Shown here in pieces: positions 19,283-20,791 of a stretch of DNA of 64,000 bases. Within the stretch, counting starts at the first letter, position 1. Every line of letters starts with the position of its first letter. The DNA is from Salinilacihabitans rarus (lineage in GTDB: Archaea > Halobacteriota > Halobacteria > Halobacteriales > Natrialbaceae): NCBI RefSeq assembly GCF_024296665.1, contig NZ_CP100762.1:2542001-2606000 (forward strand). The letters run 5' to 3'. The notes below the pieces were generated by a model. It worked only from the letters and a program-made list of their open reading frames with translations. It had not been told where the DNA came from and searched no databases. The position numbers and the translations under genes are program-made.

Positions 19283-19290
19283 TTTTAATA
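19283..19290 (+). promoter_or_regulatory. TATA-like box for the argG leader region
   Basis: TTTTAATA, flanked by GC-rich sequence, lies 26-33 bases before the ATG at 19316. That is the normal haloarchaeal promoter spacing for a leaderless or very short 5' end. Confidence 0.6.
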
Positions 19291-19315
19291 GCTCCCTCGC
19301 GGTAGAGGAGGACAG

Positions 19316-19399
19316 ATGAGACGGATCGCGTCTACCGGCGTCGCTTTCCTCGGTAGCGACGCGACCGTCGCCCCGCGACGACCGCGACCGGGCCTTTGA
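19316..19399 (+). CDS. Arginine-rich leader-like miniprotein upstream of argG
   Basis: A 27-codon ATG frame beginning MRRIASTGVAFLG and ending in a run with three further arginines (APRRPRPGL). Five of 27 codons are Arg, including AGA and three CGA, which appear uncommon in neighbouring genes. A purine-rich GAGGAGGA (19305-19312) and a TATA-like box precede it. A CGGGC/GCCCG hairpin encloses the stop codon and a T5 run follows at 19458-19462. The layout recalls bacterial amino-acid leader peptides, here upstream of arginine synthesis genes. I know of no such arginine leader in archaea, and argG seems also to have its own promoter. Confidence 0.45.
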   Translation: MRRIASTGVAFLGSDATVAPRRPRPGL

Positions 19400-19462
19400 G
19401 CCCGTACTATACTCTCCCCCCGTCCCGGTGTCTTCCCAACTTCGGAGAACTCCCTCGTTTTT
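19389..19462 (+). terminator. Hairpin and T-run between the leader frame and argG
   Basis: CGGGC (19389-19393) pairs with GCCCG (19400-19404). The six-base loop CTTTGA contains the leader stop codon TGA (19397-19399). About 55 bases later a T5 run (19458-19462) in CTCGTTTTTCC could terminate transcription before the argG promoter. Termination here is inferred from sequence only. Confidence 0.4.
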
Positions 19463-19480
19463 CCGGTTAGCGTGCACTCT

Positions 19481-19513
19481 ACCGTTAAATTCCTAAAACT
19501 AAACCGTTGAATT
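19481..19513 (+). promoter_or_regulatory. Direct repeat upstream of argG, possible operator
   Basis: ACCGTTAAATT (19481-19491) and ACCGTTGAATT (19503-19513) match at 10 of 11 positions and are spaced 22 bases start to start, about two helical turns. The second copy runs into the argG TATA box, a typical place for a repressor or activator site. Confidence 0.45.
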
Positions 19514-19518
19514 TAATA
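19512..19518 (+). promoter_or_regulatory. TATA-like box of argG
   Basis: TTTAATA at 19512-19518 lies 29-35 bases before the argG ATG, so argG is probably transcribed with only a few untranslated bases. Confidence 0.6.
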
Positions 19519-19546
19519 CTCTCCTCCCGGTTCACTCGGGTACGAC

Positions 19547-20791
19547 ATGACCCGCGTTGCACTCGCGTTCTCGGGCGGACTGGACACCACCGTCTGCGTC
19601 CCGCTGCTCGAGGAGGAGTACGGATACGACGACGTGATCGGCGTGACCGTCGACGTCGGCCAGCCGGCGTCGGAGTTCGCCGAAGCCGAAGCGACCGCCG
19701 AGGCCCTCGGCCTCGAACACTACGTCGTCGACGCGCGAGCCGAATTTGCCGCCCTCTGTCTCGACGCGGTTCGCGCGAACGCGACCTATCAGGGGTACCC
19801 CCTCGGGACGGCGCTCGCCCGCCCCGTGATCGCCGAGGCGATCCTCGAGGTCGCCGAGGAGCACGGCTGTACGGGCGTCGCCCACGGCTGCACCGGGAAG
19901 GGCAACGACCAGCTCCGGTTCGAGGCCGTCTGGCGCGACTCGGACCTCGACGTGATCGCGCCCGTGCGCGAACTCGGGCTCACCCGCGAGTGGGAACAGG
20001 AGTACGCCGCCGAGCGGGGGCTGCCCGTCGAGGCCGGCAACGAGGGCGACTGGTCGATCGACAGCAACCTCTGGAGCCGCTCGGTCGAGGGCGACGACCT
20101 CGAAGACCCGAGTTTCGTCCCGTCCGAGGCGATCTACGAGTGGACCGACGAGCCGACCGGCGAGACCGAGTTCGTCGAGATCACCTTCGAGGAGGGCTAC
20201 CCCGTCGCCGTCGACGGCGAGGCGTACGACCCCGTCGACCTGATCGAACACCTCAACGAGGTCGCCGGCGCCTACGGCGTCGGCCGCACGGACGTGATGG
20301 AAGACCGCATGCTCGGGCTCAAGGTCCGCGAGAACTACGAGCACCCCGCGGCGACGACGTTGCTCGACGCCCACGAGGCCCTCGAAGGGCTCGTGCTCAC
20401 CCAGGAGGAGCGCCAATTTAAACAGCAGATCGACTCCCAGTGGGCCCAGAAGGCCTACGAGGGCCTGATCGACGCACCCCTCGTCGGCGCGCTGGAGGGG
20501 TTCATCGCGGAGACCCAGCAGCGCGTGACCGGGACGGTGACGATCAAGTTCGAGGGCGGCAAGGCGCGCCCGGTCGCCCGCGAGAGCGAGTACGCCGCCT
20601 ACTCGGCCTCCCACGCCTCCTTCGACACCGAGAGCGTCGGGAAGATCGAGCAGGCGGACGCGACCGGCGTCGCGAAGTACCACGGCTTCCAGCGCCGCCT
20701 CGCCAACGAGTCGATCGCGGCCGCCGGGACCGGGGAGGCGGTCGAACTGGCGACCGACGGCGGCCCCGACGGAACGCAGGACGGGGAGTGA
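19547..20791 (+). CDS. argG: Argininosuccinate synthase
   Basis: A 414-residue enzyme joining citrulline and aspartate with ATP to argininosuccinate, the second last step of arginine synthesis. LAFSGGLDTTVCV at residues 5-17 is the N-type ATP pyrophosphatase P-loop (SGGLDT), and HGCTGKGNDQLRFE near 115 is the second family signature. Length is normal. It is followed after two bases by argH and heads the arginine cluster. The upstream region holds a leader-like frame, a direct repeat and a TATA box. Confidence 0.98.
   Translation: MTRVALAFSGGLDTTVCVPLLEEEYGYDDVIGVTVDVGQPASEFAEAEATAEALGLEHYVVDARAEFAALCLDAVRANATYQGYPLGTALARPVIAEAILEVAEEHGCTGVAHGCTGKGNDQLRFEAVWRDSDLDVIAPVRELGLTREWEQEYAAERGLPVEAGNEGDWSIDSNLWSRSVEGDDLEDPSFVPSEAIYEWTDEPTGETEFVEITFEEGYPVAVDGEAYDPVDLIEHLNEVAGAYGVGRTDVMEDRMLGLKVRENYEHPAATTLLDAHEALEGLVLTQEERQFKQQIDSQWAQKAYEGLIDAPLVGALEGFIAETQQRVTGTVTIKFEGGKARPVARESEYAAYSASHASFDTESVGKIEQADATGVAKYHGFQRRLANESIAAAGTGEAVELATDGGPDGTQDGE

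Follow-up and report, generated by a model that had tools for sequence, protein, structure and literature searches.

We propose that the short reading frame lying upstream of argG in Salinilacihabitans rarus is a cis-acting arginine leader-peptide attenuator that senses Arg-tRNA, a reading to which we give a probability of roughly 0.7. As far as comparison of sequences can carry, its supported parts are the frame, the rare cognate codons, the geometry of hairpin and stop codon, the tract behind the hairpin and the lineages that have no other visible argG promoter; arginine as the signal, the polarity of the response and the termination step are inferred, with no expression data at hand. An arginine-sensing leader had already been inferred in the preliminary description of this DNA, and that inference gains support from the conserved frame, codons and hairpin, from the preference for rare codons and from cognate leaders before ilvB and pheS, the response to arginine itself still being inferred.

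The leader upstream of argG

The genome of S. rarus is a single contig of 3.62 Mb, and the nearest named relatives of its ArgG are from Natrialbaceae. The window, by which we mean the whole 64-kb stretch of DNA that was analysed, contains an arginine cluster whose genes were named on the basis of translations and gene order. The features around its opening gene are the following.

End at 19258: ORF 5' of the leader region, 358 codons, with a membrane segment and an HTH-like end, as judged by eye
19282-19291, + strand: leader promoter, TATA-like element CTTTTAATAG, about 26 nt upstream of the start codon of the leader
19316-19399, + strand: leader ORF of 27 codons, MRRIASTGVAFLGSDATVAPRRPRPGL and stop, its frame kept in 100 of 101 argG loci
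19320-19369, + strand: stem 1 inside the leader ORF, from the MFE structure with the fold begun at 19317
19376-19387, + strand: cluster of Arg codons (CGA CGA CCG CGA) at the base of hairpin 2
19389-19404, + strand: hairpin 2, CGGGC-ctttga-GCCCG, whose loop includes the TGA stop (19397-19399)
19405-19421, + strand: G-free, pyrimidine-rich tract of 17 nt, immediately 3' of hairpin 2
19458-19463, + strand: T5C run, 54 nt after hairpin 2, a strong terminator motif in Haloferax volcanii (PMC7237163)
19465-19483, + strand: palindromic element GGTTAGCGTGCACTCTACC, downstream of the T5C run and ahead of the proximal TATA box
19509-19519, + strand: proximal argG TATA box, with TTTAA at 19512-19516, 35 nt before the argG ATG
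19547-20791, + strand: argG, opening gene of the arginine cluster, an ORF with matches in 61 of 61 genomes

The leader-like frame directly upstream of argG, the TATA-like box before it, its 27 codons with five for Arg and the hairpin holding its stop codon in the loop had all been described from this one sequence before, and each is borne out at the positions given. Stem 1, the G-free tract and the palindrome come on top of that description. Since the TATA-like element lies about 26 nt ahead of the ATG, the leader transcript should be leaderless or nearly so, and the leaders of relatives have a TATA element at comparable spacing. Across 17800-20000, a search of Rfam returned nothing near a gathering score (riboswitch, T-box and leader families). 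It is also noted that at two other loci (G006:C9:473550-474824 and G033:C5:8851-10134) the argG match is split in two inside one open frame of about 500 codons, which suggests, from the sequence, an insertion near residue 225.

The five Arg codons of the S. rarus leader are AGA, CGG, CGA, CGA and CGA. Taken over the loci, the Arg codons of the leaders are CGA 296, CGG 172, CGC 65, CGT 57, AGG 6 and AGA 5, to be compared with CGC 1186, CGT 285, CGG 100 and CGA 56 in argG itself, so that CGA and CGG together make up 78% of the Arg codons in leaders versus 9% in argG; within S. rarus, CGA accounts for 7 of the 141 Arg codons of the arg cluster versus 3 of the 5 in its leader. The leader uses the rare Arg codons CGA and CGG preferentially. 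In a set of 94 loci, the 36 nt next to hairpin 2 contain on average 4.8 Arg codons and never fewer than 3, with the last one beginning 0-5 nt ahead of the hairpin. A short ORF with clustered codons for the amino acid of the pathway, as is expected of a leader-peptide attenuator, is thus present at the argG leaders.

By contrast, the peptide itself is poorly kept: the N-terminal halves are dissimilar between loci, and only the frame and the Arg/Pro-rich end are conserved (for example RRPRPGL, RRPRRFRPGL, RRRRPAL and RRRRPGSP, each followed by the stop). This bears on the possibility that the leader is a nascent-peptide arrest device which responds to free arginine rather than to Arg-tRNA, as the fungal arginine attenuator peptide (AAP) does. 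The fungal AAP uORF (arg-2/CPA1) depends on a conserved peptide sequence and free arginine and acts on translation, and, like the argG leader, it is a small uORF of similar length before an arginine biosynthesis gene. A leader of about 27 amino acids, the arginine gene downstream and the conserved position of the stop codon would fit such a device. However, a conserved arrest peptide of the fungal type is not found here, where the peptide outside its Arg/Pro end varies freely and what is conserved is the Arg codons, not the peptide, with a choice of codon that goes beyond the residue alone; moreover, the Ile/Val and Phe leaders described below carry their own cognate residue instead. We consider arrest by the nascent peptide very improbable.

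The stop codon lies inside hairpin 2 in 86 of the 94 loci, the frame extending beyond the hairpin in the other 8; loci of the Natronorubrum group and a few more (L034, L039, L041, L030, L015) have a frame that stops past hairpin 2 while the Arg codons and the hairpin are kept. The arms of hairpin 2 change together from lineage to lineage, as GGGC/GCCC, GGGCC/GGCCC, GGCCC/GGGCC, GGGGC/GCCCC, GGGGTC/GACCCC and GGGCTC/GAGCCC. Note that in the per-locus pair counts the arms were picked for being paired, and hence these counts illustrate the variety of the arms and are no test of pairing. Immediately behind the hairpin, the G content falls to 0-1% at positions +2 to +15, and 87 of the 94 loci have no G at all in the 15 nt after it, versus 3.8 expected when the remainder of each intergenic region serves as reference. 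Intrinsic termination in archaea normally relies on U-runs; in the tract directly after hairpin 2 no U-run was found at the 94 loci.

For stem 1, which is predicted inside the leader ORF, the evidence is modest: compared with codon shuffles, its region has the better fold in 85 of the 94 loci, with a mean z of -1.14. RNAalifold gave no consensus structure over the whole 73-row alignment, probably because MAFFT misaligned stems that differ in length, and pairs were instead counted on a named structure and per locus. No conserved upstream alternative partner for the 5' arm of hairpin 2 was found among the 94 loci, in which the candidate partners are scattered.

Conservation across haloarchaea and control scans

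The upstream regions of argG were collected from 110 loci, 101 of them non-identical. After correction of a few automatic picks, 100 of the 101 have an ORF of 22-53 codons that follows a TATA element and contains an Arg cluster, the one left out of the count being L109, which is unresolved. With a covariance model built from 73 leader loci, 188 of the 205 good genomes of the order give a match at E <= 0.01, with one strong match per genome; in the genome of S. rarus the score is 96.5 bits versus 22.3 for the next best, the leader's own match being partly by construction. Among the matches listed, the element adjoins argG on the 5' side wherever the position of ArgG is known, and none lies outside the order (phylum-wide sample, strict filters). 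The element is visible on reading in several genomes with a weak match to the model or none (L149, L155, L156, L157), and at L157, in an AT-richer genome, the leader still has CGG and CGA as Arg codons. It was not seen on reading in the most distant families (L150, L151, L153, L154). Comparing the argG upstream regions of relatives was the check that had been proposed for the leader, with lack of conservation as its refutation; the comparison finds the frame, the Arg codons and the hairpin kept in Natrialbaceae, Haloferax, Halorussus and other families, by direct search as well as by the model, and the refutation did not materialise.

A control that does not depend on the conservation is provided by a scan for the architecture alone, namely a TATA element, a short ATG ORF and a stop codon within a hairpin of at least 5 Watson-Crick pairs. 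Over both strands of the window the scan returns exactly one locus, which is the argG leader, while in first-order randomised windows 0.07 are expected per strand, and none appeared in 60 trials when the G-free tract was required. With that tract required and with no regard to the amino acid, a scan of about 2.6 Mb gives 96 hits at argG (94 loci) and 9 at ilvB and no hit other than these, every argG hit being Arg-rich and all 9 ilvB hits being rich in Ile/Val. Chance had been named as a caution in the preliminary description. It is true that GC-rich intergenic DNA gives Arg codons in several frames, frame +1 having some too, but a chance ORF is refuted by the order-wide conservation, the architecture scan and the randomised controls, and we regard its probability as negligible.

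Promoters and the proposed switch

In 80 of the 94 loci, S. rarus included, a proximal TATA element stands about 35 nt before the argG ATG, with hairpin 2 about 142 nt from that ATG. Since argG has its own promoter there, the leader could be bypassed. At the other 14 loci (Halorussus, Haloglomus, Halomarina, Halosegnis, Halovenus and others) nothing TATA-like is found in that position, and the distance from hairpin 2 to the ATG is about 100 nt; the leader promoter being the only visible one, leader and argG should share a transcript, and the leader promoter probably drives argG in these 14 loci. The earlier caution that argG has a TATA box of its own was thus right for S. rarus and wrong for the lineages of the Halorussus type. 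Note also that the leader is always upstream of argG, and that a common transcript is suggested only by the promoter layout, there being no transcript data.

The T5 run that had been pointed out downstream of the hairpin is present, at a spacing of 54 nt, while its conservation is only partial: T4 followed by C occurs at a comparable place in 38 of the 80 two-promoter loci, is missing from the remaining 42, and occurs in 1 of the 14 others. In a Haloferax reporter, T5C terminated 95% of transcripts and a tested hairpin 59% (PMC7237163).

The palindrome GGTTAGCGTGCACTCTACC, flanked by the T5C run and the argG TATA box, is a possible operator of the proximal argG promoter. It is perfect in relatives such as L052, and the only perfect match in the S. 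rarus genome is the argG site, so that the palindrome as the mark of a wider regulon is not supported. A further observation concerns loci without the proximal TATA (L079, L093, L102, L159-L163), which have a third inverted repeat, of varying sequence, at about 40-60 nt past hairpin 2 (GACGATAC/GTATCGTT, GCGCCGA/TCGGCGC, GGCGGAC/GTCCGCC).

These promoters also bear on whether the leader is an independent miniprotein gene that acts elsewhere, its place beside argG being incidental or operon-like. Its own TATA box, in S. rarus its own downstream T5C run, and the separate promoter of argG would be in keeping with such a gene; but the separate promoter is missing at some loci, the N-terminal half of the peptide is unconserved with only the Arg codons, the frame and the hairpin kept, and the choice of rare codons, the order-wide position upstream of argG and the Ile/Val and Phe versions before ilvB and pheS all speak against it. 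We hold a miniprotein to be highly unlikely.

Based on the attenuator reading, the switch would operate as follows. The distal promoter would give a leaderless transcript that opens with the 27-codon ORF, and its translation would bring a ribosome to the rare CGA and CGG codons at the base of the GC hairpin in which the stop lies. Under a shortage of Arg-tRNA, this ribosome would wait on the Arg codons and cover the 5' arm of hairpin 2, and RNA polymerase would continue into argG. With ample Arg-tRNA, it would reach the stop codon and depart, and hairpin 2 would form ahead of the G-free tract. With the hairpin formed, transcription may end at the tract, at the T5C run that follows 54 nt later, or through FttA. 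In S. rarus the second, proximal promoter with its palindromic element would also feed argG.

With an assumed reach of 12 nt beyond the A site, a stalled ribosome would extend into hairpin 2 from at least 1 Arg codon in 94 of the 94 loci and from at least 2 in 92 of them. The classical antiterminator, with mutually exclusive pairing, is rejected, only scattered partners for the 5' arm of hairpin 2 being found; because no conserved partner exists, the simplest switch is direct blocking, that is, not the classical three-way switch but a direct-occlusion variant of it. Terminator-like features do follow the Arg codons, as the conserved GC hairpin with its G-free tract and as the partly conserved T-run, termination itself being inferred. 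In a structure paper on FttA (2024), mutual exclusion of the ribosome and FttA was proposed as an untested hypothesis (PMC11616081).

The position of the ribosome could, however, sense arginine while what is controlled is the stability of the RNA or, as with a uORF, the translation of argG, or while hairpin 2 acts with the opposite sign, forming when the ribosome stalls upstream. Three points would suit such variants: where the proximal promoter is missing, argG follows the leader as a second cistron at a distance of about 100 nt; hairpin 2 has no U-run behind it; and a ribosome stalled at the cluster's first Arg codon would in some cases leave hairpin 2 uncovered. By contrast, the proximal promoter of most species would produce an argG mRNA without the leader, which purely translational control would miss, and in S. 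rarus and many other species the T5C terminator lies between leader and argG. We consider these variants unlikely; the opposite sign and translational control are nonetheless not excluded.

Leaders for other amino acids and known systems

Leaders of the same kind precede ilvB at 21 loci, where the peptides end in IIVGA or similar before the stop, which lies in a hairpin, and a G-poor tract is present; the hairpin is exemplified by GTAGGGGC-..TAG..-GCCCCTAC. Rare codons are again enriched, with ATT making up 24 of the 37 Ile codons in ilvB leaders versus 46 of 673 in ilvB, and GTA 27 of the 63 Val codons versus 12 of 1271. Phe-rich leaders were found at 25 of the 30 haloarchaeal pheS loci searched, about half of the loci having a hairpin at the stop, and a G-free tract being absent. 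Both kinds occur in S. rarus.

Near G000:C1 1434500 of the S. rarus genome, outside the window (L238): ilvB leader MTRRAPASARTADSGAFAPLIIVGAA and stop, with rare Ile/Val codons and the stop in a hairpin
54617-54531, - strand: pheS leader ORF MALESHGRAGLALQPRRPRSGFGFFFAR and stop, ending GFGFFFAR, upstream of pheS at 54393 in the same window, its stop inside a CCCGG-tgagt-CCGGG hairpin

The regions upstream of trpCBA, trpS and hisG have no Trp- or His-rich leaders of the argG kind. We think it probable that the leaders before argG (Arg), ilvB (Ile/Val) and pheS (Phe) form an order-wide haloarchaeal class of leader-peptide attenuators, namely leaderless ORFs with the stop in the controlling hairpin, where a starved ribosome would block the hairpin directly; Archaea would then have ribosome-mediated attenuation.

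In bacteria, ribosome-mediated attenuators with leader peptides are known as trpL, hisL, ilvL and thrL. The argG leader shares with them a short ORF rich in codons for the product, hairpins in the leader RNA and a biosynthetic operon downstream. It differs from them in being archaeal, in its leaderless transcript, in having arginine as the amino acid, in the stop lying inside the last hairpin with the cognate codons at the hairpin foot, in the lack of conserved antiterminator pairing, and in the G-free tract that replaces the U-run after the hairpin. We thus take it as a variant of leader-peptide attenuation, which shares the codon logic and fails the classical antiterminator feature, the effect of arginine being inferred. 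The pheST operon of E. coli has an attenuator with the PheM leader peptide and is the counterpart of the haloarchaeal Phe-rich pheS leader, which however is archaeal, has another leader sequence and other hairpins, and has no U-run shown. In tnaC the ribosome stalls at the stop codon by means of the nascent peptide and tryptophan and masks the Rho site, Rho being what terminates. The stalled ribosome there covers the RNA just downstream without any antiterminator, as in the switch proposed for argG, whereas the stall at the stop brought about by nascent peptide and tryptophan, and the termination by Rho, are not part of that switch.

In Haloferax, dRNA-seq mapped a 26-aa uORF in the long 5' UTR of pheS, and a uORF was also reported before a trpS (PMC4983044). 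Such Haloferax volcanii uORFs in long 5' UTRs are, like the argG leader, short ORFs with their own TSS before larger genes; in the section of that paper which covers them they are presented as small proteins, no amino-acid sensing is proposed and argG is not listed (PMC4983044). Our literature search found no archaeal leader-peptide or ribosome-mediated attenuator, with most of the subscription literature outside the search and priority unproven.

Present in almost all haloarchaea examined, the argG leader gives strong reason to think that a ribosome translating a leader peptide can serve archaea as the sensor of an amino acid, a type of control known from bacteria. If the attenuator reading is true, archaea would sense amino acids by a mechanism usually considered bacterial, in which the fate of the transcript is coupled to the translation of its leader peptide, and regulatory coupling of transcription with translation would gain in vivo evidence in organisms with a eukaryote-like polymerase and termination factor. 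The argG and ilvB elements being conserved and genetically simple, the question is directly testable in Haloferax volcanii.
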